Shown here piece after piece: positions 3,408 through 44,532 of a stretch of 47,869 bases of DNA (positions are counted from its first letter, which is position 1; every line of letters begins with the position of its first letter). The stretch lies in IMG/VR virus record IMGVR_UViG_3300047388_000258, positions 1 through 47,869 of that record, one strand, 5' to 3'. Below the pieces are notes generated by a model, which worked only from the letters and a program-made list of their open reading frames with translations, was not told where the DNA came from and did not search any database. The position numbers and the translations under genes are program-made. This DNA comes from a virus.

Positions 3408-3587
3408 ATGGCGATCAAGAAACGCACGGTCACCCTTTCTGACGCGGAGTGGGAAGCACTCCGCCTGGAAGCACGGTCCCAGGGTGTGTCGCGGCATCAG
3501 ATGTTCCGCAAACTCGGCCAGGACGCCCTCCGCATGCACCCCGAGGCTGGCGCCTTGAAGACGCCCGGAGAGGTCTACGGTGGCTAG
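3408..3587 (+). CDS. Ribbon-helix-helix-like small DNA-binding protein (59 aa)
   Basis: The product begins MAIKKRTVTLSDAEWEALRL, that is, a short beta strand followed by two helices (EARSQGVSRHQMFRKLGQDAL). This matches the size and pattern of CopG/Arc-type ribbon-helix-helix repressors, which bind DNA as dimers through the N-terminal strand. It is leaderless and is the first rightward gene after the divergent promoter, a typical position for an autoregulator of that promoter. Its 3' end overlaps the next gene by 8 bases. Confidence 0.6.
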   Translation: MAIKKRTVTLSDAEWEALRLEARSQGVSRHQMFRKLGQDALRMHPEAGALKTPGEVYGG

Positions 3588-4086
3588 CCCCGGGGATTTT
3601 GGCCTGTACAAAGGCACCGACACGGTGGGGCGCCTCATTGAGTTGGGTGAGTGGGCCAACGGAGACGGTTTCAGTCGTTACAGCCATGCGTTCGTTTTGC
3701 TGGACGACGCCACGATCCTGGAAGCTGAGCCGGGGGGCGCGCGCATCCGACCCGTCGAGGAGTATCCGGCGGAGCTGATTACCTGGTCGAGTTGGGACTT
3801 GTCGGCGCTTCCCGGGATGCGCAGTCTGATCGTAACGCACGCTCGGTTGTTGCTTGGGACACCGTACTCGTTTCTGGACTACTTCGCGTTGGCCACCCAC
3901 CGTTTGCACCTCTCGGCTCCCGGGTTGCAGCGGTACGTGGCGTCGACCGGGCACATGATCTGCTCCCAGTTGGTAGACGAGGTGTATCGGCGTGCCGGTC
4001 TGCAGTTGTTCGCAGACGGTCGCTGGCCCGGCTACGTCACGCCCGCGGATCTGGAAGCCGTGCTGCACGACGGCCCGAAGCGGTGA
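3580..4086 (+). CDS. YiiX-like (permuted NlpC/P60 papain-fold) hydrolase (168 aa)
   Basis: The GTG start at 3580 overlaps the end of the previous gene. The sequence has the permuted papain-like layout: an early His in RYSHAFVLLDD followed by ILEAEPGG, and a late Cys in GHMICSQLVDEVYRRAG. Enzymes with this fold cut amide or ester bonds in peptidoglycan, lipids or protein conjugates. There is no signal peptide. A similar protein of the same layout is encoded at 44059-44532. Role in this phage unknown: early cell-envelope or host-protein modification and lysis are all possible. Confidence 0.65.
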   Translation: MASPGDFGLYKGTDTVGRLIELGEWANGDGFSRYSHAFVLLDDATILEAEPGGARIRPVEEYPAELITWSSWDLSALPGMRSLIVTHARLLLGTPYSFLDYFALATHRLHLSAPGLQRYVASTGHMICSQLVDEVYRRAGLQLFADGRWPGYVTPADLEAVLHDGPKR

Positions 4087-4144: not shown

Positions 4145-4161
4145 AAAGCCTTGGGGGCTTT
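4145..4161 (+). promoter_or_regulatory. Small hairpin holding the G-rich ribosome-binding stretch before 4165
   Basis: AAAGCC (4145-4150) pairs with GGCTTT (4156-4161) around loop TTGGG. The only Shine-Dalgarno-like bases for ATG 4165 (GGGGG, 4153-4157) are in the loop and 3' arm, so folding could limit initiation. Confidence 0.4.
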
Positions 4162-4164
4162 CAC

Positions 4165-4665
4165 ATGAAGAAGACTATGCTCGCTGCGTCGGCAGTCTTG
4201 GCACTTGGTGCTACTATCGCCGCCGTCCTGCCGGCCTCCGCCGCTACCGTGGGTGCCAGTGTCCAGCTTCTGCCGACCGGCGGCTACATCGGTGACCTGC
4301 CGGGCAGCCATTCCTATCTCGGTGACGACCCGATCACCGCGGGTACGTCGCGTTCGTACACCGTGGCGTGCGGCAACGCCGGCAGCGTCAACGAAGACCT
4401 GACACTGGCGGCCACCGCTGGCTTCCCGTGGAACCACACCGCTCCGCAGGCCCCTACGTCGTGGGTCTATGCCGATCCGGAGAGCCTTGCCAACGTCGCC
4501 CCCGGTGGATCGCTCACGTCCACCGTCACAGTGACTGTTCCGGCCGGCACCGCGCCTGGCCTCTACGTCGGTATCGTCTACTGCAACGCTCTGGCCTCGA
4601 CTCAGGGCGGTGGAATCAACGAGGGTGCCGGAGCCGGCATCCGCGAGTACGTCCAGGTCCCGTAA
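4165..4665 (+). CDS. Exported protein of unknown function (166 aa)
   Basis: The N-terminus is a textbook Sec signal peptide: MKKTM, a hydrophobic core, then PASA before ATVGAS (cleavage after about residue 26). The mature part is Thr/Ala/Gly-rich with two well separated Cys (SYTVACGN and GIVYCNAL) that could form a disulfide, and repeated beta-strand patterns (GGSLTSTVTVTVPAGTAPGLY) like a bacterial Ig or jelly-roll fold. No family is assigned. It opens a three-gene run of exported products. Confidence 0.7.
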   Translation: MKKTMLAASAVLALGATIAAVLPASAATVGASVQLLPTGGYIGDLPGSHSYLGDDPITAGTSRSYTVACGNAGSVNEDLTLAATAGFPWNHTAPQAPTSWVYADPESLANVAPGGSLTSTVTVTVPAGTAPGLYVGIVYCNALASTQGGGINEGAGAGIREYVQVP

Positions 4666-4685
4666 CCTATCGGAGGTCCCCCACC

Positions 4686-5774
4686 GTGTCCCGTAAAACG
4701 ATCGCTGCTCTTTCCGCTACAGGTCTGATACTCGGGGCATTTGTGGGCGTTGCCACAGCCGCGACGCTGTCCAGTTCGACCTTGACACTCGGGGCCGGAG
4801 ACAGCGTCGCGGCTGTCTGCCCCAACCAACTGTCTACCAGTGGTAAAACCACGCACAACATCACGTTGAAGTGTGCCGCGAACCCCACGACTGTCCCACC
4901 CACGACTACAGTCGTGCCGCCGGCCACTACGACCACCGCTCCGGTTACTACCGCGACCCCCCCGCCCACGCCCACCACACCGCCCGCCGGCACGTGGTGG
5001 CAGCCGGGTCCCGGCAACATCGAGTGGCAATGGGAGATCGACCACCCTCTGAGCCTTACCTCGGCCGCGGACATGGGCACCGGCCAGACCGCGTACACCG
5101 GTGCCACCGCACCGGCCACCAATCCAACCGTCTTCGACATCGACGGTTTCGACAACCCGGCCAGCACGGTCGGTTCGCTGCACGCGCTCGGGTTCAAGGC
5201 GATCTGCTACATCGAGGTGGGCGCGGCCGAAAACTACAGGGCTGACTACAGTCAATTCCCCACGGTGGCGTTGGGCAACACCATGCCGGGGTACAGCTCG
5301 GAGCGGTACCTCGACATCCGCAACGCCACGGTGGTGTCGGTGATCGAGGCGCGGATCTCGATGTGCAAGTCCAAGGGCTTCGACGCGGTCGAGACGGACA
5401 TCGACGAGTCGTACCAGTCGAGTACCGGTTTCCCGCTGACCAAGGCCACCGAAGAGACGTTCATGGTTACCTTGAGCAACTACATGCACGCCAACGGCAT
5501 GGGCTGGGTAGCGAAGAATTTGGACGACACGGGTGATTCGTACGCGACGGACATGTTTCCGAACGCGGACGCCCTGCTCACCGAGGAGTCCAACTTCTAC
5601 GGGACCTCGGGCCTGTTCAGCTCGTACCTCGGTCACAAGGCCGTGTTCAACGCGGAGTACACCAGCGACAACCAGACCGCTGCGAAGTTCTGCCCGCAGG
5701 ACAACGCGGCCGGCGAAAATGGTGTACTGTTCAACGTTAATCTGAACGCCACTGTCCGCGGCGTCTGTCGGTAG
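4686..5774 (+). CDS. Secreted GH114-like glycoside hydrolase with Thr/Pro linker (362 aa)
   Basis: GTG 4686 has a GGAGG site about 10 bases upstream; the longer upstream frame is noise. Residues 1-25 form a signal peptide ending ATA. Residues about 26-62 are a small two-Cys module (VCPNQLS...ITLKCAAN), followed by a Thr/Pro linker to about residue 100. The rest carries the GH114 (endo-alpha-1,4-polygalactosaminidase type, TIM barrel) hallmarks: FDIDGFDNP, AICYIEVGAAENYR, GFDAVETDIDESY with acidic catalytic candidates, and GWVAKNLDD. GH114 enzymes cut galactosamine-rich exopolysaccharide. Encoded by a phage with an export signal, it would act outside the infected cell. The next gene shares its N-terminal module. 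Confidence 0.75.
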   Translation: MSRKTIAALSATGLILGAFVGVATAATLSSSTLTLGAGDSVAAVCPNQLSTSGKTTHNITLKCAANPTTVPPTTTVVPPATTTTAPVTTATPPPTPTTPPAGTWWQPGPGNIEWQWEIDHPLSLTSAADMGTGQTAYTGATAPATNPTVFDIDGFDNPASTVGSLHALGFKAICYIEVGAAENYRADYSQFPTVALGNTMPGYSSERYLDIRNATVVSVIEARISMCKSKGFDAVETDIDESYQSSTGFPLTKATEETFMVTLSNYMHANGMGWVAKNLDDTGDSYATDMFPNADALLTEESNFYGTSGLFSSYLGHKAVFNAEYTSDNQTAAKFCPQDNAAGENGVLFNVNLNATVRGVCR

Positions 5775-5783
5775 GGAGCAACA

Positions 5784-6926
5784 GTGCGATTGAAGGCGGC
5801 ATTAGCCCTGTTATCCGTTCTTGTCCTGATCCTCGGCGGTGGCCTGTTTTTCGAGGCCACCGCATCCACCAGCAGCATCGCGCTCGCGCCGGGCACTACT
5901 ACGACCGCGGTCTGCCCCAACTCGTTGACCACCTCGAACAAGACGGCTCACAGCATCACGTTGAAGTGCGCGGCGAACAAGACACCACCGCCAACCACTA
6001 CGACCGTAGCCCCACCCACCACCACGACGGTCCCCGTAACGACCACCACTACCCCGCCGAGCACCACTACTTCGACACCGGTCAACGGCAACTGGCCCAC
6101 CGCAGCGGACACTGGGTCGAGCGGCACTTTGACTGACGTCACGCCGCCCACCGGGGAGCTGATCCTGGATCAGACCAACCAGGTGTTCGCGAACACGAGG
6201 GTGCACGGCACGGTCACCGTGCTGGGTTGCAACATCACCCTACGGAACGTAGAGGTGGATGCCAGCGAGCCGTACAACGGTAACGCGAGCCCAGACTTGT
6301 TCGCGGTGTGGCTCAAGGAAGACCCGTCGTGCTCGGTGACGCTGGACCACGTGTCGGTTTTGACGCCGGCCGGCCAGTACGCCACCGAGGCGGTGCGGGA
6401 CGCGTACGGCGGTCCTGCCACGGTGACGTCACTCAACGCTCAGGGCCAGCAGCTCGGCATGACGGTCGGCGTGGGAACCGTCGTGACCGACTCGTACATC
6501 GCGTTGGCCCCGACACTGCGCGGAGACCACAACGAAGACGTCCTGGACGACGGAACCACCAGCCTGACCTTGACGCACAACACGTTCCTCAACCCGAACG
6601 GCCAGACCTCGGCGTTGTCGCTGTTCACCGAGTTCGGCCCCAACTCGGACGTACTGGTCAAGGACAACTGGCTGGCGGGTGGTGGTTACACCTGCTACTG
6701 CGGCGACGGTGCCACCAGTAACAGTGGTGCTCCTGCTCCGTCATCCAACGTCAGCTTCGAGGACAACGTTTTCAGCGAGCAGTATTTCCCGACTGTGGGT
6801 GCTTTCGGCCCGGGTCGGGCGTACAACCCCGCAGGCGGCGGACAGTGGCTCAACAACGTCTACGCCCTCCCCGACGGTACGGTGACGACCCAGCAGGTGT
6901 CACAGCCGCCGTTGGATGGTAAGTAG
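5784..6926 (+). CDS. Secreted parallel beta-helix protein, lyase-like, with shared N-terminal module (380 aa)
   Basis: GTG 5784 is followed by a signal peptide (hydrophobic core LALLSVLVLILGGGLFF, cleavage near EATA). Residues about 28-62 repeat the two-Cys module of the previous protein (VCPNSLTTSNK then ITLKCAAN), followed by a Thr/Pro linker. From about residue 105 the sequence has coils of the right-handed beta-helix type (NTRVHGTVTVLGCNITLRNVEV, TLTHNTFLNP, VSFEDNVFSE), as in pectate-lyase-like enzymes and other polysaccharide-active proteins. Catalytic residues cannot be assigned by eye. It probably works with the GH114-like enzyme on extracellular polysaccharide. Confidence 0.7.
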   Translation: MRLKAALALLSVLVLILGGGLFFEATASTSSIALAPGTTTTAVCPNSLTTSNKTAHSITLKCAANKTPPPTTTTVAPPTTTTVPVTTTTTPPSTTTSTPVNGNWPTAADTGSSGTLTDVTPPTGELILDQTNQVFANTRVHGTVTVLGCNITLRNVEVDASEPYNGNASPDLFAVWLKEDPSCSVTLDHVSVLTPAGQYATEAVRDAYGGPATVTSLNAQGQQLGMTVGVGTVVTDSYIALAPTLRGDHNEDVLDDGTTSLTLTHNTFLNPNGQTSALSLFTEFGPNSDVLVKDNWLAGGGYTCYCGDGATSNSGAPAPSSNVSFEDNVFSEQYFPTVGAFGPGRAYNPAGGGQWLNNVYALPDGTVTTQQVSQPPLDGK

Positions 6927-8186: not shown

Positions 8187-9116
8187 GTGGCGATACTTCT
8201 GGACTACTCTGCCGGCCAGCTGTCCGGAGCAGCCGTGGCCAACGCTGGGGCTGCTGGGGTCATCCGCTATGGTGGCACCCCCGGACGCATCAAGAACACC
8301 ACACCGGGGGAAGTGGCCAGTCAGCACGCCGCCGGTCGTGAAGTTCACATGGTGTACGAAAACGGCACCTCGGACTTTTTGGGCGGCTACAACGCTGGCC
8401 GGATCAACGCTGCGGCTCTCGCCGCCGACGCCAGTCACTGTGGCGTCACGGGGTACTTGTTCATGTCTGCGGACCAGCATCTGTCATCAAGTCAGATCGG
8501 GGTGTGGCAGGCGTACGTAGACGGGGCACAGACCGTCTTGGGTGAGCGCGGCGGTGCCTACGGGTTCAGCGAAGCCCTTCTGGCAGTGCGCGGTGCCACG
8601 CACGTGTTCTGGCAGTCCGGCGCGCATCCGTCCGCCACCGGGACGTCGGGGTTCGTCAATGTGTGGCAGCGAAACAGCGGCCAGACTACGCTCACTGTCA
8701 GTGGCATTACCTGCGACATCAGCGATGTCCTCATCCCACTAGGAGACGAAGTGGCTCTCGATGCGAACGACGCCAACACCATCTGGTCGGCACCCGTGTG
8801 GTTCCACTACCCGGCCGGCCCGCTGGCCACGTGGCTGACCAGTGTCGGCTACACCGCCAATGCGGACGGATCTGTGGACGTTCGGAACGTCGGCGCGGGA
8901 GAACTGCTCAACGTCGCAGCCACCCGCATCGGTCTGATCGAGTCCCAGGTGGCCCAGCTGCTGGCTCGGCCGGCCGGTCAGACGGTCACCATCGACCCGA
9001 CCACACTGGTCCAGCCGATCGTGGATGCGCTCATCCCGCACCTGCCGGCGGCAGCGGACACCAACGCCATTGCCACGGCGGTCAAGAACACCATCCAGGC
9101 CCAGTTCAACAAGTAA
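8187..9116 (+). CDS. DUF1906 glycoside-hydrolase-like protein, candidate endolysin (309 aa)
   Basis: Residues 1-180 match the DUF1906 (Rv2525c-like) TIM-barrel pattern: LLDYSAGQLSGAAV, GVIRYGG, EVHMVYENGTSDFLGGYNAG and later YGFSEALLAV. Such domains occur as catalytic modules of actinophage lysins and as exported bacterial cell-wall proteins. The C-terminal 70 residues have a helical tail (RIGLIESQVAQLLARP, then LVQPIVDALIPHL) often seen on phage lysins. There is no signal peptide. The holin gene lies 200 bases downstream, which supports a lysis role. Its exact bond specificity is unknown. Confidence 0.65.
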   Translation: MAILLDYSAGQLSGAAVANAGAAGVIRYGGTPGRIKNTTPGEVASQHAAGREVHMVYENGTSDFLGGYNAGRINAAALAADASHCGVTGYLFMSADQHLSSSQIGVWQAYVDGAQTVLGERGGAYGFSEALLAVRGATHVFWQSGAHPSATGTSGFVNVWQRNSGQTTLTVSGITCDISDVLIPLGDEVALDANDANTIWSAPVWFHYPAGPLATWLTSVGYTANADGSVDVRNVGAGELLNVAATRIGLIESQVAQLLARPAGQTVTIDPTTLVQPIVDALIPHLPAAADTNAIATAVKNTIQAQFNK

Positions 9117-11505: not shown

Positions 11506-11764
11506 GGGCATCGAAGATGCCCTTAACGACGCCATCGCGGACGTGATACTCATCCACGAGCAGGGTTTTGTCACGAAGTGGGTGTGTCTCATTGAGACTG
11601 TCGATTCCGAGGGTGAGCGGGGTGTATGGTCCTGCACTAGTGACAGCATGGCCCCGTGGGACATCTTGGGGTTGCTCCAGTACGCTACGGAAAAGGAAAA
11701 GCTGAACCTGGTGTTGAGTCGGACTCGTGAATTGGGCGAGGACGCTGATGGCGACGCAGGCTGA
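11468..11764 (+). CDS. Small protein between the terminase subunits (98 aa)
   Basis: GTG 11468 is used here; ATG 11477 is an equally possible start. The sequence (ALNDAIADVILIHEQGFVTKW, then GVWSCTSDSMAPWDILGLL) belongs to a small family common in actinophage operons, with no known activity. It overlaps the small terminase by 38 bases and the large terminase by 17, so it is translationally embedded in the packaging operon. Confidence 0.7.
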   Translation: MSWMQETPASTGEGIEDALNDAIADVILIHEQGFVTKWVCLIETVDSEGERGVWSCTSDSMAPWDILGLLQYATEKEKLNLVLSRTRELGEDADGDAG

Positions 11765-13763
11765 GCTGCTCCAGAAGCTTCAGGCGTTGTCCAAATACGC
11801 CTGGTACTGTCCGGACCCCAAATGTCCGGGAGACCCGCACGATGTATATCTGAATCGGCACGCCCGCCCAAACCAACGGCCCCCGCAGAGTGACTGGTGG
11901 GGGTGGTTTCTGCGGTCCGGCCGGGGGTTCGGCAAGACCAGAAGCGGGTCTGAGTTCGTCAAAGATAGGATGCTTACGATTCCGGGTCACCGCGTCGCTA
12001 TCATCGTCCCGGACTTCGGTGTCGGCCGAGACGTGTGCATCGAAGGCCGCTCCGGACTGCACGGACCGACCGCCGGGGAAGGCGTCATCCCCAAGAATAG
12101 AATAAAGCTGTGGAACAGGTCTCTCGGAGAACTGGTTCTCGATAATGGCTCAATAGCCAAGATTTTCGGTTGTGATAAGCGAAAAGACGCTGAAAAGCTC
12201 CGTGGATTCGAGTTCTCGACGGCATGGTTCGAAGAGTTGGGTTCCTGCGCCTACGGTGAGGTCGCGTGGGACATGCTGGAGTTCGGTTTGCGTGCCGACG
12301 ACCCCAAGGTGGTCATCACCAGCACACCCCGACCCACCCCGCTGATCAAGCGCCTGTGCGCGGACCCCGACATCCTCGTGGTCACGGGATCGACGTACGA
12401 CAACATCGACAACCTCGCCCCCAAGTTTGCCGCACGTATCAAACGCAGGTACGAAGGCACCACACTGGGTCGGCAAGAGCTGTACGGCGAGATCCTGGAC
12501 GGCTCGGACGGAGCCCTGTGGAGCTACGACATTATCCAGCGGGTGGCCGAGGCTCCGCACCTTGTGACGGTAGTGGTAGCCGTAGACCCGGCCGGCACGG
12601 CGCACGCCACATCCGACCTCACCGGAATCCTCGTTATGGGACTCGGTGAAGACGGCAAGATCTACGTTCTGGCCGACAAGTCGGACCGGTATTCACCTGA
12701 GCAGTGGCGCAAAGTCGTGGTGCAGGCGTACGAGGACTACAACGCCGATGCCGTGGTGGCCGAAGTCAACTTCGGCGCCGACATGGTTGCCGCCAACTTG
12801 CGGACCTCGGACATCGGTGTGCGGCCAGTGTTCGTTCCGGTCCGGGCCAGCCGGGGCAAGGCGATCCGCGCTACCCCCGTGGTCGGGCTGTACGAGCAGG
12901 GCCGCGGGCGGCATGTCGGAACGTTCCCGGAGTTGGAGGTCGAACTGACCACGTGGGTTCCACCCGGTCAGTTCGATGCGGACGGCGAGCCGATTCCGGA
13001 GTCGAAGTGGTCCCCGAACCGCCTGGACGCGCTGTGCCTAGTGGGTGACACACCTGTGCTTACCGCTGTGGGGGGGGTGGAGATCTCTCGTGTTCGTGTG
13101 GGGGACCGCGTGTGGACTCGCAACGGGTGGCGTCGGGTGGCCGCTGCTGGGATATCCCGCCGGTCAGCCCCCATCCTCGAAGTGGCGATAAGCGACGGAT
13201 CAAGTCTCCGGGGAACGGGTAACCACCCCGTTTGGGTGGTAGGGCGCGGTTGGGTTCGCATCGATGCACTGGTATGTGGCGATACACTGGACGCATGGAC
13301 CACGACGAAGCGGCGAAGTGGCATGGGTCTGAAGCGGGGCGAAGGTGGCACTCGGAGAAGTCCCTCCAACAGTGGGCTAACCCCACGACGTATGCCCGAA
13401 TATGCCAGGCGTCTCGATGCGGCACTGTGTTTGTGGCGTACAACGCGGACGCTGTTTACTGTTCTAGGGCGTGTGCCCGGTGGGCGGAGGACCAAGAGCA
13501 TCGCTACGAGGTCGAGGTACCGTGTCCCGTTTGTGACATCCCCTTTTGGCAGAGTAAGTACCGACCCAAGCCGGCCCACTGCTCCAGTTCGTGTGGTTGG
13601 GTTGCGCGACGCAGGCGTAGCTGATGTGTACGATCTCGCGGTGGCTGAGACGCACGAGTTTGTGGCCTCCGGTGTGGTGGTGCACAACTGTTGGGGCGCG
13701 ACCCACCTCGCGCTGAAGCCTCGGCGTCCCCGCAGCAGGATGCGATTCCCGATCCTCGGTTGA
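11748..13763 (+). CDS. terL: Terminase large subunit, interrupted by an intein (671 aa precursor)
   Basis: The packaging motor ATPase/nuclease. Walker A is at about residues 57-64 (SGRGFGKT), Walker B at about 156-163 (FSTAWFEE), the coupling motif at TSTPRP, and the RNase H-like nuclease begins at VAVDP (about 277-281), continuing with EVNFGAD. At residue 430 the conserved SPNRLDAL is interrupted by the intein; CWGATHLAL resumes at residue 648. After splicing the protein would be about 453 residues, the usual family size. The first block CPDPKCPGDP resembles a small Cys pair seen in actinophage TerL. The gene ends inside the -35 box of the next promoter. Confidence 0.9.
   Translation: MATQAELLQKLQALSKYAWYCPDPKCPGDPHDVYLNRHARPNQRPPQSDWWGWFLRSGRGFGKTRSGSEFVKDRMLTIPGHRVAIIVPDFGVGRDVCIEGRSGLHGPTAGEGVIPKNRIKLWNRSLGELVLDNGSIAKIFGCDKRKDAEKLRGFEFSTAWFEELGSCAYGEVAWDMLEFGLRADDPKVVITSTPRPTPLIKRLCADPDILVVTGSTYDNIDNLAPKFAARIKRRYEGTTLGRQELYGEILDGSDGALWSYDIIQRVAEAPHLVTVVVAVDPAGTAHATSDLTGILVMGLGEDGKIYVLADKSDRYSPEQWRKVVVQAYEDYNADAVVAEVNFGADMVAANLRTSDIGVRPVFVPVRASRGKAIRATPVVGLYEQGRGRHVGTFPELEVELTTWVPPGQFDADGEPIPESKWSPNRLDALCLVGDTPVLTAVGGVEISRVRVGDRVWTRNGWRRVAAAGISRRSAPILEVAISDGSSLRGTGNHPVWVVGRGWVRIDALVCGDTLDAWTTTKRRSGMGLKRGEGGTRRSPSNSGLTPRRMPEYARRLDAALCLWRTTRTLFTVLGRVPGGRRTKSIATRSRYRVPFVTSPFGRVSTDPSRPTAPVRVVGLRDAGVADVYDLAVAETHEFVASGVVVHNCWGATHLALKPRRPRSRMRFPILG
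13283..13288 (+). promoter_or_regulatory. -10 box TACACT six bases before the intein-nested ATG
   Basis: TACACT ends at 13288 and the nested ATG is at 13295, the same six-base spacing seen at six other leaderless starts in this window. No convincing -35 hexamer is at 16-18 bp (ATCGAT at 17 bp). Confidence 0.4.
13295..13624 (+). CDS. Zinc-finger protein nested in the intein in another frame, homing-endonuclease-associated type (109 aa)
   Basis: This frame is -1 relative to terminase. It begins MDHDEAAKWHGSEAGRRWHS, then carries two Cys4 fingers: RICQASRCGTVF with YCSRAC, and CPVCDIPF with HCSSSC, and ends in a basic tail ARRRRS. The WHGSEAGRxWH-plus-two-fingers layout resembles insertions that normally sit in frame between intein blocks B and F of Hint inteins in actinobacteria and phages. 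Here it is out of frame but intact, starting where block B ends and stopping just before block F. Either it is expressed separately from the leaderless start, or two indels displaced its frame. No HNH catalytic motif is seen. Confidence 0.6.
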   Translation: MDHDEAAKWHGSEAGRRWHSEKSLQQWANPTTYARICQASRCGTVFVAYNADAVYCSRACARWAEDQEHRYEVEVPCPVCDIPFWQSKYRPKPAHCSSSCGWVARRRRS

Positions 13764-13987: not shown

Positions 13988-15127
13988 GTGAAGGTACCGA
14001 TCCTAGACCTCGGGTTGACCCCGCTGGCAGACCAGTTCCCGGCGACGTCAGCCGAGGCGTACGCACAGGAGCTGTACCCGCTGGGCCTGACGGTAGACGA
14101 CCAGACGTGGACCGTCGAGTTGACTCACCACGTTCCGGACGAGCTGCTGTTCGGCGACGGTTACGCGTTCCTAACCGGGTCGTCCCCCGCGCTGAAGACG
14201 TACTTCGAGAACTACGCGGAGTGGGTGGCAGAGCGGTATGATCACCTGTTTCCCCAGGGTGTCTGTGAGATCGCCTGCAACGACGGCACGCTGTTGCAGC
14301 ATTTCAACCACACTCGGCATCTCGGTATCGACCCGGCCAAGCCTGCGATCACCGAGGCCAAGCGCAAGGGGCTCAGTACCGCCCACATGGCGTTTGACAA
14401 TGACACGGCACACGACATCGAAGAACCGTTCGGCGTGGTCATCGCCAACAACGTAGCCGCCCACGCAAGCAGCCTAGAAGACTTTCTGGCCGGCGTTGCG
14501 TATCTGATCCGCGACGGTGGCGTCGGGATCATCGAGTTCCAGTATGTGGGGGACCTGCTCAGTGACGCACTGTGGACGGTGGTGTACCACGAGCACCGGA
14601 GGTTCCTGTCCCTGACTAGCTTCATGGCCGCGTGCCCGGATGAGATGCACGTGGTTGACGTGCTGCGGACGCCGACCCAAGGCGGTTCGCTACGCGTCGT
14701 GGTGAACACCACGTCTGGCAACCCCTCCGGTGCGGTGCTGGACCTTCTGGAGAAAGAGGCGTGGCTGTGTCGGCTCGACACGTACACCTCGCTTCAAGGT
14801 CGCGTGGACTACCAGGTGGATCGGCTGTGGTCGGCACTGGAGAACCTCGGAACGATGACGCTGTACGGGGCACCGGCCAAGGCCACCACGCTGGTCCACT
14901 ACGCCGGATTGGTTAACATGATCGACTACGCGGAGGATCTGACACCCGGAAAGATCGACCGATACCTTCCTGGGACGGATATCCTGGTGGTAAAACCGGG
15001 CACACACAGCCGCCCGTCGGCGTATCTGGTCGCGATCGACAATTACTTGTCCAGCACCCTGAGCCGCGAGAGCACGTTTCTGGCCGACGGTGGTCGTTTC
15101 GTCTTGCCGAACGGAAAGGTGATCTGA
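13988..15127 (+). CDS. Sugar C-methyltransferase-like SAM-dependent enzyme (379 aa)
   Basis: GTG 13988. The N-terminus has LGLTPLADQFP, matching the PLAN/PLADxF start of nucleotide-sugar C-methyltransferases, though their usual zinc-binding Cys cluster is absent. The SAM-binding core is at about residues 88-110 (VCEIACNDGTLLQHF) with a downstream FGVVIANNVAAHASSLEDFL. The C-terminal domain shows the family's YGAPAKATTLVHYAGL and KIDRYLPGTDI motifs. Such enzymes (TylC3/NovU type) add a methyl branch to a 4-keto-6-deoxy sugar bound to a nucleotide. With the GDP-mannose dehydratase downstream it would make a branched deoxy sugar. Confidence 0.8.
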   Translation: MKVPILDLGLTPLADQFPATSAEAYAQELYPLGLTVDDQTWTVELTHHVPDELLFGDGYAFLTGSSPALKTYFENYAEWVAERYDHLFPQGVCEIACNDGTLLQHFNHTRHLGIDPAKPAITEAKRKGLSTAHMAFDNDTAHDIEEPFGVVIANNVAAHASSLEDFLAGVAYLIRDGGVGIIEFQYVGDLLSDALWTVVYHEHRRFLSLTSFMAACPDEMHVVDVLRTPTQGGSLRVVVNTTSGNPSGAVLDLLEKEAWLCRLDTYTSLQGRVDYQVDRLWSALENLGTMTLYGAPAKATTLVHYAGLVNMIDYAEDLTPGKIDRYLPGTDILVVKPGTHSRPSAYLVAIDNYLSSTLSRESTFLADGGRFVLPNGKVI

Positions 15128-15128
15128 C

Positions 15129-15338
15129 ATGAGCACACTGTTTGACGAAAAAGTAGGTGCGATAGCGCAACTCCTGGGGAGGTACGTAACCGTGTCCGAC
15201 TCCAAAACCGCCATGACCGGCCGATTCGTCAAGTTGGAGTACGTGATAACGCGGGGGATTGAAAGCGTCTTGGTCGTTCTCGATTATGGGTACGCCATGC
15301 CGGTGTCAGTGGGCCTGACTGTTAGAGAGGGTGACTAG
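15129..15338 (+). CDS. Small hypothetical protein (69 aa)
   Basis: ATG 15129 lies one base after the methyltransferase stop. The product begins MSTLFDEKVGAIAQLLGRYV and has a beta-rich C-terminal half (VKLEYVITRGIESVLVVLD). It might be a small barrel domain. No family is recognised. It is inside the sugar operon but need not be an enzyme. Confidence 0.6.
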   Translation: MSTLFDEKVGAIAQLLGRYVTVSDSKTAMTGRFVKLEYVITRGIESVLVVLDYGYAMPVSVGLTVREGD

Positions 15339-15339
15339 C

Positions 15340-16284
15340 GTGCGGGTGTTGGTCACGGGTGTCACAGGGCAAGATGGTTACTACCTCGCCGAGCTGCACG
15401 CCAAACGCGGCGACGAGGTCTTCGCGCTGGTGCGTGGTCAGCGGCCGGTTGTACTGCCCGAAGGCGTCACCGAGATCCGGGGCGACCTGCTCGATCAGAT
15501 GAGCCTAGTCAACGCCGTGAAGACCGCTCAGCCCGACACGGTCTACAACCTGGCCGCCGTGGCGTCCATAGCCGCGTCGTGGGGCTCGCCGGACCTGGTG
15601 GCCAACGTGACCGGCCTGGGCGTCTTGCGGCTGCTGGAGGCCGTCCGAACGGTGGCACCAGGAGCCTCGTTCGTCCATGCCTCGACATCGGACATGTTCG
15701 GTAACTGGGCCGGTGTGTCCACCGAGAACACACCGTTCGACCCCAAGACACCCTACGGCTGTGCCAAGCTGTACGCCCACCAGATGTGCCGTACCTACCG
15801 CGATGCGTACGGCATGCGGATCTCGACGGCAATTTTCTACCCGCACACCAGCCCCCGACAGGGTTCCGGGTTCATCATCCCCAAGGTGACCCGCGCGGCG
15901 GTCGCTATATCGCGAGGGTTCCAGACAGAGCTACGCCTCGGCAACATCGACGTGGTGCGCGACTGGGGCTGGTCGTACGACTACGTGCGTGCGTTCCCAA
16001 TCCTAGCTTCACGGGATGCCGCCGTCGGTGACTACATCCTGGCCACCGGTGTCAAGGCCAACCTCGCTAAGTTGTGTCAACTGGCATTCGACTCGGTCGG
16101 GTTGGACTGGGTGGACCACGTCAAGGTGGACGACTCGTTCTATCGGCCCACCGACGTTAAGTCCCAACAGGGTTGTCCATCCAAGGCTTGGACCGAGTTG
16201 GGTTGGAGGGCGCGCGTAGGACTGCCCGAGACTGTTCGTCGCATGGTGGAGCACGCCAAGACGGAGCTGGGGTGGCCGACGTGA
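15340..16284 (+). CDS. GDP-mannose 4,6-dehydratase-like short-chain dehydratase (314 aa)
   Basis: GTG 15340 is chosen because GAGAGGG lies 8 bases upstream; GTG 15331 is an alternative. The Rossmann NAD(P)-binding loop is GVTGQDGYYLAEL (residues 7 onward), followed by GDLLDQMSL, and the active site is STSDMFG (about 115-121) with Tyr139 and Lys143 in YGCAKLYAH. The GQDG loop and SDMFG are hallmarks of GDP-mannose 4,6-dehydratase, which makes GDP-4-keto-6-deoxymannose. The product would feed the C-methyltransferase and the glycosyltransferases nearby. Confidence 0.85.
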   Translation: MRVLVTGVTGQDGYYLAELHAKRGDEVFALVRGQRPVVLPEGVTEIRGDLLDQMSLVNAVKTAQPDTVYNLAAVASIAASWGSPDLVANVTGLGVLRLLEAVRTVAPGASFVHASTSDMFGNWAGVSTENTPFDPKTPYGCAKLYAHQMCRTYRDAYGMRISTAIFYPHTSPRQGSGFIIPKVTRAAVAISRGFQTELRLGNIDVVRDWGWSYDYVRAFPILASRDAAVGDYILATGVKANLAKLCQLAFDSVGLDWVDHVKVDDSFYRPTDVKSQQGCPSKAWTELGWRARVGLPETVRRMVEHAKTELGWPT

Positions 16285-22764: not shown

Positions 22765-24051
22765 GTGCTTCTATTCCTCCCGCTGATCCCTACTCAGAAG
22801 TCGAACTCGGACGCGTCTTCAGGTGTCGACACCGGTGGGTTGACCAGCTACGTCGGCTCCTACGCGGACAACACCCTCACGCCGGGCACCACACCACCCA
22901 ATACTGCGGGTGGCGACACCTCGGTGTGCCTGGGGCAGGTTTTCTACCTATCTGAGGCACAGGTCATCACGGGTGTGCAATACTACCGATCAGACGGCAC
23001 CTGGGACGGCACCGATATCCTTGTGGGCGTCTGGGACCCCTCCGGTAATTTGCTGGCCACAGCTACATCCACACAAGACCTGCTAGAGCCCGTGGGCTGG
23101 GTGCAGGTCCTTTTTCCCATACCTCTCGAACTGGCCCTTCTGGGCGTGGGTAACCAATACACCGTCGGCTACCGCACGGGCGGAGTTAACCTCGGGCACT
23201 ACGCGTACAGTGCGGGGTTCTTCTCCTCGGACTACTCGAACGGCGCGTACAACGTACCCGCTAATGGCGGTCGGTTCAAATACGTGTTCGGTCCCGCGTT
23301 GGACCAGCCAGACCACGGAACCAGTAGCGGGTATTTCGTAGATGTCGTTACCGTGCCCACGGGTCTCGGTACAGACGCCACCGCAGGTTCCGACACGAGT
23401 GCACTAAGCGTCGATCAGTCCGTGTCGGATACGTTGTCCGGAGCAGATACCGAGACTCTCAACTCTGCGGTTGCTGGCAATGACACAGTCTCGCTGATTG
23501 ACACTACCATAGCGCAAGTCACGACTAATGCTACCGATGCGATAACAACCACCGAGTCGGCCTCTGTATCCGTTGTTCAGACGGGTGTAGACGATACCGC
23601 AAGTGTGGAAGCCGGATCGGGTTCGGTCTTCGTTACGGCGGCCGACATTGGCACCCTGATCGAAACGGGGATGGCCGGCGAGAGCATCGTTGGATCGGAT
23701 ACCGGCTCGTCTGCAGACTCTGGTACAGCGACTCCTGGGTTGTTCAGCACAGATGTCACAGCTTCGTCAGAAACGGGTGTCGCCTCCGTCGCGGATCTTG
23801 GATCGGATACCGCTGCGGCCGCTGACTCCGCCGGCGTGTCCGCCTCCCTCCTGGGTATGGATGCTGCGTTGACGGCGGAGCTTTCTGTCCTCGTGGTGGC
23901 TGGTGCAGGGATCGAATCTGCCACGGGATCCGACACGGCAAGTGTGAATAAGCTCGGAGTGCCGAAACGAATCAAGTCGGAGAGCATCGCACAGCGCCCC
24001 GACACCGTATCCTCGGTACGTACCCCACGAACGGAGACGACACGTCGATGA
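22765..24051 (+). CDS. DUF4082-domain protein with Asp/Ser/Thr repeat tail, fibre-like (428 aa)
   Basis: GTG 22765 has GGGAGGGG upstream. Residues about 55-180 form a DUF4082 domain (ITGVQYYRSDGTWDGTDILV, VGVWDPSGNLLATATS, QYTVGYRTGGVNLGHYAYS), a carbohydrate-binding-like beta sandwich. From residue 205 to about 400 the chain is built of loose repeats around the words GSDT, DTAS and ETGV (for example TGSDTASV and VAGNDTVS), with almost no charged residues except Asp and Glu. This composition suits an extended fibre or spacer. The last 25 residues are basic. Confidence 0.65.
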   Translation: MLLFLPLIPTQKSNSDASSGVDTGGLTSYVGSYADNTLTPGTTPPNTAGGDTSVCLGQVFYLSEAQVITGVQYYRSDGTWDGTDILVGVWDPSGNLLATATSTQDLLEPVGWVQVLFPIPLELALLGVGNQYTVGYRTGGVNLGHYAYSAGFFSSDYSNGAYNVPANGGRFKYVFGPALDQPDHGTSSGYFVDVVTVPTGLGTDATAGSDTSALSVDQSVSDTLSGADTETLNSAVAGNDTVSLIDTTIAQVTTNATDAITTTESASVSVVQTGVDDTASVEAGSGSVFVTAADIGTLIETGMAGESIVGSDTGSSADSGTATPGLFSTDVTASSETGVASVADLGSDTAAAADSAGVSASLLGMDAALTAELSVLVVAGAGIESATGSDTASVNKLGVPKRIKSESIAQRPDTVSSVRTPRTETTRR

Positions 24052-24365
24052 TCGACATGACGATGCGCGCCGGTGAGACCCTGACGGTTGACAGCCAGGT
24101 GACTAACGCGGATGGGTCACCCCGGGACATCTCGGGTGCCGCCGTCTCATTTTCGGTGTGGGACGGCCCGGCCCTTGGTTCGCTAGAAGTGGTCGGCACC
24201 GGGGTTGTGACCAACGGTCCGGCCGGGGACATAACCGCTTACCTGATCGACAGTGCTACCGATGAGTACGCTGGCCAGCGGCACGTCTTCTACTACAAGA
24301 TCTCCCTGACCGAGGTCAACGGTACCGAGACCGTGATCGAGGATGGAAAGCTGATCATCCAGTGA
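24048..24365 (+). CDS. BppU-like beta-sandwich protein (105 aa)
   Basis: ATG 24048 overlaps the preceding stop. The sequence (MTMRAGETLTVDSQVTNADG, then AAVSFSVWDG and RHVFYYKISLTEVNG) is like the N-terminal Ig-fold domain of phage baseplate/upper-collar BppU proteins, which adopt a beta sandwich. Here it stands alone. A structural attachment role is inferred. It overlaps the next gene by 4 bases. Confidence 0.6.
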   Translation: MIDMTMRAGETLTVDSQVTNADGSPRDISGAAVSFSVWDGPALGSLEVVGTGVVTNGPAGDITAYLIDSATDEYAGQRHVFYYKISLTEVNGTETVIEDGKLIIQ

Positions 24366-25306
24366 CGACCCAGGTCTACGCGCATGCAAAGTGCGCGTCT
24401 TTTTTCTACCGACTGGCCGAGCCCGCCCGCGTGCTCGGGGTCGAAGTGGTCGAGCACCCCGGCCACGTCACAGCCGACACTGTCGTCACCCAACGACCTT
24501 TGCTCCCCGAGCTGGCCGACCTGGTGGTCAAGTGGGTGGCCGAAGGCCGACGGGTGGTGGTGGATTCGGACGACTCTTTCGACCACCTCGACCCGGCGCA
24601 CGGCATCCACGGCCACTACAAGACCGAGCACTACCACCGTGCGTGCAAGGCTGCCACGGTCAACACCACTACCACCCCCGGCCTGGCCAAGCTGTACGGC
24701 TACGGTAAGGCCGCCGTGCTGCCCAACTGCGTCCCCGAGTCGTACCTTCGCTCAGCCCCACGCGGTCGGCGTTCGCCCGAGCCGTGGATCGGCTGGTCCG
24801 GCTCGATCAGCGCTCACCCCAACGACCTCGCGGTGACCGGTGCTGGCATCGCCAAGGCGATCAAAAGCACGCGAGCCCGGGTCGTCTATCTCGGACCGGA
24901 GCGAGACGAAGCCACGATCAGTCGTCAACTCAGCGTGCGTGACGTCATGCCGCTTGGTTTCGTGTCGTTGCTCGGCTTCCCGTCGGTCATCGCGGAGTAC
25001 GACATCGGCATCGTGCCGCTAGAGCCGATCCCGTTCAACACGAAGATGAAGTCGTGGCTCAAGGGAATCGAACTGGCGGCGTGTGGCGTGCCGGTGGTGG
25101 CGAGCCCCACCGAAGACTACCGCCGGTTGGCCAAGCTGGGTGCCTGTCTCCTGGCCAAGACCCCGGCCCATTGGTACGAGCACGTGAGTCGCCTGTTGCA
25201 CGACGAATCGTTCCGATCAGAACAGGCCCAGCGCGGTCGAGAAGCGATGCGCGATTGGACATACGAGAAGCGTGCTGATCTGTGGCGAGAGGCCTGGGGC
25301 TTGTAG
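24362..25306 (+). CDS. GT-B fold glycosyltransferase, GT4-like (314 aa)
   Basis: GTG 24362 overlaps the preceding stop. The C-terminal nucleotide-sugar-binding half shows IGWSGSISAHPND, RARVVYLGPERDEA, and the donor-binding helix WLKGIELAACGVPVVASPTED, all typical of GT4-type glycosyltransferases. The N-terminal half is short and holds VVVDSDDSFDHLDPAHGIH, often seen in phage and bacterial members. It is the last gene before the capsid promoter. Together with 16281-17009 it gives two glycosyltransferases flanking the head genes. Confidence 0.8.
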   Translation: MTTQVYAHAKCASFFYRLAEPARVLGVEVVEHPGHVTADTVVTQRPLLPELADLVVKWVAEGRRVVVDSDDSFDHLDPAHGIHGHYKTEHYHRACKAATVNTTTTPGLAKLYGYGKAAVLPNCVPESYLRSAPRGRRSPEPWIGWSGSISAHPNDLAVTGAGIAKAIKSTRARVVYLGPERDEATISRQLSVRDVMPLGFVSLLGFPSVIAEYDIGIVPLEPIPFNTKMKSWLKGIELAACGVPVVASPTEDYRRLAKLGACLLAKTPAHWYEHVSRLLHDESFRSEQAQRGREAMRDWTYEKRADLWREAWGL

Positions 25307-40131: not shown

Positions 40132-40517
40132 CACCTACTGTACTGCTAGACGCAGCCATCGTCTTCTCCGCGGCAGCGTCCCTCAGCTTCGTAGTGATCT
40201 ATGGTTGGTCGTCCAAGTGGTGGCACAACCTCATCGGACGCGGGTTGATGGTCAAGTCCATCATGCAGACCTGGATCTTCGTGGGTCTCGCCATCGGCCA
40301 CTTCTTCATCAGTCCGGACGTCGGCACGTCCGGATACCCCGTGGCGCCCTCTATAGCCCTGTTTGCCCTGTTTGGCATCGCGGATGCCCAGAGGTCCGTG
40401 TCCTTTCTGGTCGAATACTCCCGACAGCGGAAGATAGCGGCTACACGAGCAGCACTGGAGCACAACGCTGAGTCAGATGTATCGTTACGCACGGGGGGTC
40501 GCACTCGGATTTTTTGA
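40128..40517 (+). CDS. Three-helix membrane protein, copy 1 (129 aa)
   Basis: ATG 40128 overlaps the preceding stop. Hydrophobic segments are about residues 5-26 (VLLDAAIVFSAAASLSFVVI), 42-62 (VKSIMQTWIFVGLAIGHFFI) and 72-90 (APSIALFALFGIADA). The next gene repeats the pattern. Such pairs occur in actinophages near tail or lysis genes with unknown function; a holin-like role is possible. Confidence 0.6.
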   Translation: MTPTVLLDAAIVFSAAASLSFVVIYGWSSKWWHNLIGRGLMVKSIMQTWIFVGLAIGHFFISPDVGTSGYPVAPSIALFALFGIADAQRSVSFLVEYSRQRKIAATRAALEHNAESDVSLRTGGRTRIF

Positions 40518-44058: not shown

Positions 44059-44532
44059 ATGGCACCGAAGGCAGGAAGCTACGGGGTGTCGTCTGGCGAG
44101 GATCGGATGTCGCGTGTGATGACGATGTTCACCCGCTCACCGTGGACCCACACGTTCATCGTAGGGCCCGACGACACCGCAATTGAGGCTTGGCCCGGCG
44201 GAGTGCGGTCTGTTCCCCTGGCTACGTACCGGGACGGCAGGCGGGTGGCATACAGCGACGACCGGGTCGGAGACGTCCAGCGTGGACGCATCGTGGCCGC
44301 GGCCGTCGCCTTGATCGGGGTCGGCTACGACTTCCTGTCGCTCGGCCTGCACACTCTTCGGGTGCTTGGAGCTCCGGTACCGGTATTCGGACTGCCAGGA
44401 ACGATCCTCTGTCCCCAGCTCGTGATACTCGCCGGCCGAGCAGGAGGCCAGGACTGGACCAGTGGCTTGCCCGACGCCCTGGTGACACCCATGACCCTAG
44501 GGCGGAGGCTGGCATGGCCTCGTACAGCGTGA
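44059..44532 (+). CDS. YiiX-like papain-fold hydrolase, second copy (157 aa)
   Basis: ATG 44059 has GGGAGA upstream. A permuted papain-like layout is seen: His in SPWTHTFIVGPDDTAIEAWP, a central VAYSDDRVGDVQRGRIV, and Cys in GTILCPQLVILAGR. It is similar in plan to the 3580-4086 product. In both loci the hydrolase follows a small leaderless gene at a divergent promoter. Substrate unknown (amide bonds in peptidoglycan, lipid or protein). Confidence 0.6.
   Translation: MAPKAGSYGVSSGEDRMSRVMTMFTRSPWTHTFIVGPDDTAIEAWPGGVRSVPLATYRDGRRVAYSDDRVGDVQRGRIVAAAVALIGVGYDFLSLGLHTLRVLGAPVPVFGLPGTILCPQLVILAGRAGGQDWTSGLPDALVTPMTLGRRLAWPRTA

Follow-up and report, generated by a model that had tools for sequence, protein, structure and literature searches.

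IMG/VR record IMGVR_UViG_3300047388_000258 (47,869 bases, without end repeats; herein the window, meaning the whole stretch of DNA that was analyzed) carries terminase, portal, head protease, capsid, and tape-measure genes. The record is a fragment, as a DNA polymerase gene is truncated at its right end. Between phage genes on this viral record lies a cassette of three genes, packed on the plus strand, that encode an immunoglobulin (Ig)-like domain protein (gene 1), a glycoside hydrolase of family GH114 (gene 2), and a predicted right-handed β-helix protein (gene 3; Table 1). A first-pass annotation, made from the sequence alone, had assigned Sec-type signal peptides to all three consecutive genes; the coordinates and a rule-based scan agree. 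The rule (basic n-region, 12-residue hydrophobic core, and AxA/AxS site, applied to start codons) was run over the 317 six-frame open reading frames (ORFs) of at least 60 residues in the window. It matched seven: genes 1 through 3, membrane proteins at 40245 and 40514, and two antisense ORFs within the tape-measure gene. The cassette genes encode the sole soluble products flagged in the window, and the predicted export of all three is well supported. The GTG start of gene 2 is preceded by GGAGG at 4672 through 4676.

Gene 2 contains a GH114 domain, with the barrel expected by the first-pass annotation; the Pfam match (Table 1), both catalytic acids, and a model nearest to Ega3 agree on this point. 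The catalytic pair of Ega3 is Asp189 and Glu247 (PMC12054363), and the aligned D238 and E300 of gene 2 are kept in 21 of 21 aligned GH114 proteins. Relatives in the PDB found by sequence are Ega3 (6oj1, 6ojb), 9ep6, and 9ep5. The model of gene 2 (mean predicted local distance difference test [pLDDT] score 79.5) was built from 13 aligned sequences and is therefore not independent of the sequence; the first match of its barrel is Ega3 6oj1 (5.7e-22, target TM 0.87), followed by the Fusarium solani GH114, GH191, and then PelA hydrolase. The gene 2 protein has the domain, the catalytic Asp/Glu, and the predicted barrel in common with Ega3 (6oj1/6ojb) and the F. solani enzyme (9ep6), but differs from them in being viral, in having a two-cysteine module and a Thr/Pro linker, and in lacking the C302/C308 pair. 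We consider GH114 chemistry likely and read the product as an active-looking endo-α-1,4-galactosaminidase. Its closest bacterial kin are in G001, the genome of L003 (Acidimicrobiaceae bacterium isolate bog_575, a metagenome-assembled genome from a bog), where five GH114 paralogs are 54 to 63% identical to it. Soluble production of bacterial GH114 enzymes remains elusive (PMC12054363), so phage-borne members would be useful new candidates.

Table 1. Features of the three-gene cassette and of its two neighbors
Feature	Position	Strand	Description
Upstream neighbor, phrog_1128 protein	3580..4086	+	phrog_1128 E 3.3e-27; YiiX/papain-amidase-like, Pfam C92 E 0.33, sub-threshold
Gene 1	4165..4665	+	ATG start; 166 residues; signal peptide (LPASA/A) and one NEW3 (NPCBM_assoc) Ig-like domain
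Gene 2	4686..5774	+	GTG start; 362 residues; signal peptide, two-Cys module, Thr/Pro linker, GH114
Gene 2 signal peptide, residues 1-26	4686..4763	+	hydrophobic core 2.27 over 12 residues; rule-based scan
Gene 2 module, residues 27-66	4764..4883	+	Cys45 and Cys63; common to gene 3 and three G001 GH114 proteins
Gene 2 Thr/Pro linker, residues 67-105	4884..5000	+	from sequence; pLDDT <50 over most of linker
GH114 domain	5025..5747	+	Pfam Glyco_hydro_114 PF03537, 1.5e-48, 165.5 bits, cut-off 27
D238 and E300 codons	5397-5399 and 5583-5585	+	aligned with Ega3 catalytic D189 and E247 (alignment with 6oj1)
Gene 3	5784..6926	+	GTG start; 380 residues; signal peptide, two-Cys module, Thr/Pro linker, right-handed β-helix (predicted)
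Gene 3 module, residues 29-66	5868..5981	+	Cys44 and Cys62; alignment with gene 2 module
β-helix domain	6093..6923	+	model pLDDT mostly >80 outside few loops
Downstream neighbor, Rv2525c-like glycoside-hydrolase-like, possible lysis gene	8187..9116	+	PF08924 32.9 bits, cut-off 27.2

Between the signal peptide and the linker, genes 2 and 3 carry the module whose likeness had been pointed out earlier and is borne out by alignment: gene 2 residues 27 through 66 and gene 3 residues 29 through 65 score 121, and the best of 20,000 shuffles scores 64 (none reach it). At the DNA level, the two copies share 69% identity across 110 aligned bases, which fits a header duplicated onto a second enzyme. The module, which had looked new at first pass, is not a phage invention; it heads three of the five GH114 proteins of G001, within the same signal peptide–module–linker header. 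The other two paralogs have, respectively, an N terminus cut by the contig end and a short signal-peptide form. The module, which may attach to the wall or to polysaccharide, has no Pfam match over cut-off and, for the phage genes, no NCBIfam match; its models are of low confidence (block pLDDT about 39 to 76), with two short strands. In a module profile search of 247 genomes of G001's class and 150 of its family, strong matches occur in G001 only, where they are circular because three G001 sequences are in the profile, and the others have E values of 4e-4 or weaker. Among proteins with a signal peptide and a Thr/Pro-rich linker, exactly two cysteines lie between these elements in 11 of 13, a count that leaves out L126, whose cysteines follow its short linker (12 of 14 by a scripted count that includes it). 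The exceptions are L110, with no cysteine, and L118, with a lipobox. The cysteine spacing varies from 6 to 21 residues and, as the spacings differ, common descent of all two-cysteine headers is not claimed.

The model of gene 3 (mean pLDDT 74, lowest in the linker) is a right-handed β-helix, in keeping with the parallel β-helix of a polysaccharide-active fold class proposed at first pass. By sequence the protein has no convincing Pfam match and no PDB match. In a second-look structural alignment, the model reaches Z scores of about 20 to 22 with many tailspikes, lyases, and epimerases that tie with one another, including the Vibrio matrix lyase RbmB; such a tie shows fold class, not function. 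Foldseek matches are weak throughout (best PDB E value 0.011; one BFVD match below 0.001). In the class of G001, ten regions from eight loci align with gene 3 at 22 to 26% identity. Across 25 β-helix rows (the window, these ten regions, and 14 viral rows, one a near copy of another), H249 (codon 6528-6530), N295, G299, G300, N328, and N358 are invariant. From the predicted fold, the product is probably a polysaccharide lyase or hydrolase. Phage tailspike depolymerases (such as 3gq8 and 6f7d) have the fold class predicted for gene 3; they are virion proteins, whereas gene 3 has a signal peptide, module, and linker.

Gene 1, whose product the first-pass annotation had left undescribed, encodes a NEW3 (NPCBM_assoc) Ig-like domain (Pfam PF10633, 31.6 bits; cut-off 24.4). 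Weak actinobacterial relatives are present in 7 of 246 genomes; a second search confirmed four of them, of which L132, L133, and L134 have NEW3 and then a C-terminal membrane helix. The fourth, L138, is a chance match to a dehydrogenase. Immediately before the gene 1 start lies a perfect hairpin (AAAGCC-GGCTTT, 4145-4161), which may cover the ribosome-binding site; it is not unusual (z -1.37) and has no second copy in the window. Between 3300 and 9400 there is no sigma-70-type promoter, and terminator-like sites are no more frequent there than by chance.

Exported enzymes of these two kinds, seen at first as a rarity among phage products, are not peculiar to this phage. Profile scans found GH114 in four further viral contigs (L109 and L110, which are near copies, L111, and L112; 60 pattern matches examined) and the β-helix in 14 (198 pattern matches examined), most with signal peptides. 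All three distinct viral GH114 proteins start with a signal peptide, and in L111 and L112 the gene order is endolysin, GH114, integrase. A computed signal peptide-like start is found in 9 of the 14 viral β-helix proteins; L124 is a near copy of a signal peptide-bearing protein with its start cut off, and L128 is cut by the contig end. The closest relative of gene 3 is the β-helix protein of L118 (67% identity over the domain), which has a lipobox and no module; the tape measure of L118 also resembles that of the window (46% over 155 residues). The signal peptides, together with this predicted lipoprotein, sustain the earlier view that secretion is likelier than packaging. The gene after the viral GH114 in L110 (10868-11392) encodes a signal peptide, a long Thr/Pro stretch, an NTG-type motif, and a membrane helix, and its product looks sortase-substrate-like by eye.

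Other searches returned little. Single-protein scans of viral contigs with genes 1, 2, and 3, portal, and capsid gave no relative, which for genes 2 and 3 reflects limited sensitivity, as 4 and 14 contigs emerged from the profile scans. A tblastn search of 50,697 phage records found no match to genes 1 through 3 or to the portal; the terminase matched 331 records, all at less than 60% identity. Megablast of positions 1 through 25000 of the window gave no match.

In a tree of 21 GH114 domains, the window and viral L110 proteins fall within a clade (100/99) that contains the five G001 paralogs; L112 pairs with a Dormibacterota protein (91/91), and L111 branches outside. The composition of the L110 protein was flagged by the tree tool. 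The tree suggests that viruses took up GH114 several separate times, a direction of transfer that we infer. The window belongs to a siphophage that, judged by gene kinship, probably infects an actinobacterium related to Acidimicrobiaceae.

The genome of this bacterial relative also bears on the substrate. Contig C155 of G001 (11.5 kb) encodes a fourth GH114 paralog, distinct from the three with the header, PelF, a multi-transmembrane protein, GlmS, and a spherulin-4 protein, along with epimerase/dehydratase and nucleotidyltransferase (nucleotide-sugar) genes. PelF was identified as an NCBIfam equivalog (181 bits, cut-off 100; in a control of this cut-off, 1 of 14 known genomes passed), and the neighborhood holds for one of the five G001 GH114 paralogs. 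Spherulin-4 we take to be the GH135 (Sph3) family. Sph3, a GH135 enzyme, acts on galactosaminogalactan (PMC12054363), and a Bacillus hydrolase that is secreted and encoded beside pel disrupts Pel biofilm (PMC7112168). From one gene neighborhood and knowledge of the enzyme families, we can fairly infer a Pel/galactosaminogalactan-type exopolysaccharide of the host lineage as the target. The polysaccharide target first proposed is in this way narrowed through the PelF locus of G001; the second genome with GH114, G558, does not share that link. The Gram-positive PelA_H (like the GH166 domain of PelA; PMC7112168) is likewise an exported galactosamine-polymer hydrolase near pel genes, a linkage that gene 2 would share through its G001 relative; gene 2 belongs to a different GH family, is phage-encoded, and lies away from any pel locus. 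A galactosaminogalactan deacetylase was not found beside the GH114 gene of L069, where the neighbor is an Ig-repeat protein. This neighbor has FHGS...PIVGMA-type repeats, which also occur in the G001 GH114 protein with the contig-cut N terminus (L068, 4626-5504).

The cassette sits outside the tail-gene block. The downstream neighbor also weakly matches an endolysin PHROG (E 0.015), and a second phrog_1128 gene is found at 44059-44532, far from the copy upstream of the cassette. In L118, the β-helix gene is flanked by genes for a phrog_19005 protein and an otherwise unassigned, Rv2525c-like (by eye) protein, then a holin; in L120 and L122, the β-helix gene adjoins endolysin genes. Elsewhere in the window are C-methyltransferase, GDP-mannose-dehydratase-like, and glycosyltransferase genes (13988-15127, 15331-16284, and 24362-25306). 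The same three kinds, 31 to 40% identical, stand directly before the exported β-helix gene of L123 (3771-7450), which raises the question of whether a glycan-modification set travels with exported β-helix enzymes. A DUF4082 protein without a signal peptide (22765-24051; 1.7e-17) lies between the head protease and capsid genes, and the exported β-helix protein of L129 has a DUF4082-like stretch by eye. At the C terminus of the terminase large subunit (11727-13763) is a Hint/intein-like region (Pfam Intein_splicing 32.6 bits, slightly short of the 35.8 cut-off) followed by only ∼20 residues.

The reading we favor, which we judge to stand an even chance of being correct, is that the cassette serves the escape of progeny from host aggregates. 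The infected cell would make three proteins with Sec signal peptides, in two of which the GH114 and β-helix domains would be held by long Thr/Pro linkers behind the signal peptide and two-cysteine header. Late in infection the enzymes, encoded next to lysis-type genes, would be exported and might come to be displayed at the surface; there they would cut a Pel/galactosaminogalactan-like host matrix, and progeny would leave the aggregate. Surface display is suggested by the Thr/Pro linker and the lipobox of L118, and dispersal at lysis by the gene position near lysis-type genes.

Several observations weigh against this reading. The cassette is known here from sequence and predicted models, and the host from kinship of genes, not from a prophage or a clustered regularly interspaced short palindromic repeat (CRISPR) match. 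No PelG, PelD, PelE, or PelA domain was matched on C155, which ends just past pelF. A GH114 of this kind is present in 2 of 14 genomes of G001's genus; in the second of these, G558 (GH114 59% identical), no PelF passes the cut-off, and the GH114 gene has other neighbors, none of them pel genes. The Cys302/Cys308 pair is present in the other 20 of 21 GH114 rows, with serines in the window protein. Three viral β-helix proteins (L127, L130, and L131) are without a signal peptide by inspection, so the domain can be a virion part elsewhere. Finally, the records of L118, L111, and L112 (three of four relatives tested), and also L120, contain integrases, which makes a role of benefit to the lysogen as natural there.

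Such a role, with carrier cells using the enzymes to reshape matrix or to feed on it, to the gain of the lysogen and not of virion release, is possible but distinctly less probable than progeny escape. The GH114 gene of L111 and of L112, flanked by endolysin and integrase genes, occupies a usual place for cargo genes, and among free-living actinobacteria secreted GH114 and β-helix proteins are nothing unusual. In the window, however, a PF00589 search found no integrase, though the record is a fragment, and the cassette here lies between two lysis-type genes rather than adjoining an integrase. The enzymes may instead clear infected cells and their debris of the polysaccharide receptor that the phage itself uses, blocking superinfection and the trapping of progeny, by analogy with influenza neuraminidase. 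The same anatomy (export, display, and position in the lysis region) would serve this end, and the methyltransferase, dehydratase, and glycosyltransferase genes in the window and before the L123 β-helix gene indicate that glycans at the surface may be of importance to these phages; the observations fit matrix and receptor alike as the target, and we regard receptor removal as unlikely.

Virion-associated, tailspike-like depolymerases with incidental signal peptides would fit the tie of the gene 3 fold among tailspikes and lyases, as well as the three β-helix proteins lacking export signals. Yet each of the three cassette products bears a signal peptide, and the L118 relative a lipobox. The linkers and headers are the ones that secreted bacterial enzymes carry, and the cassette sits apart from the tail genes, which leaves this explanation very improbable. 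Bacterial DNA mis-assembled onto a viral contig could account for the close bacterial relatives, but the codon-position guanine-cytosine content of the cassette genes is like that of their phage neighbors, no junction is apparent among the closely packed genes, and the same gene kinds occur on other viral contigs; we give mis-assembly almost no weight.

A generalization of progeny escape is put forward tentatively, and we think it rather doubtful as a whole. Actinobacterial phages would repeatedly have taken up host matrix enzymes as release factors that are displayed on the dying cell and expressed with the lysis genes. In these factors a signal peptide would precede an interchangeable header (short and of disulfide type, or a lipid anchor), then a Thr/Pro stalk and a matrix-cutting domain. 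On this view the two-cysteine module would represent a new class of anchor in the envelope, copied from host Pel hydrolases.

Carbohydrate-active enzymes (CAZymes) of soil viruses are already known (PMC9485262, PMC11222151), and GH114 is listed among the CAZymes of a vinegar virome in a table entry (PMC9602057) that likewise annotates it in viral sequences and gives no gene, export signal, or context. The chitosanase V-Csn (PMC9485262) is, like the gene 2 product, a carbohydrate-active enzyme of an uncultivated soil-type virus; the terms "signal peptide" and "secreted" are absent from the main text of that paper, and in the present case exported products are encoded in tandem, with a header of bacterial type. 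The open-licence literature searched yielded no account of a phage GH114 that is exported, nor of the two-cysteine header.

The exit of progeny from a matrix-embedded aggregate is usually explained by virion tailspikes. Enzymes exported by the infected cell would, if the reading is true, be a separate and shared route out of the matrix. Viral CAZymes in soil would then be linked with the breaking up of matrix, not with carbon feeding. A substrate that can be tested also emerges, Pel-like galactosamine polymers of Acidimicrobiaceae in peat. The similar exported enzymes in several other viruses suggest, but do not prove, that viruses help to dissolve the slime of their hosts.

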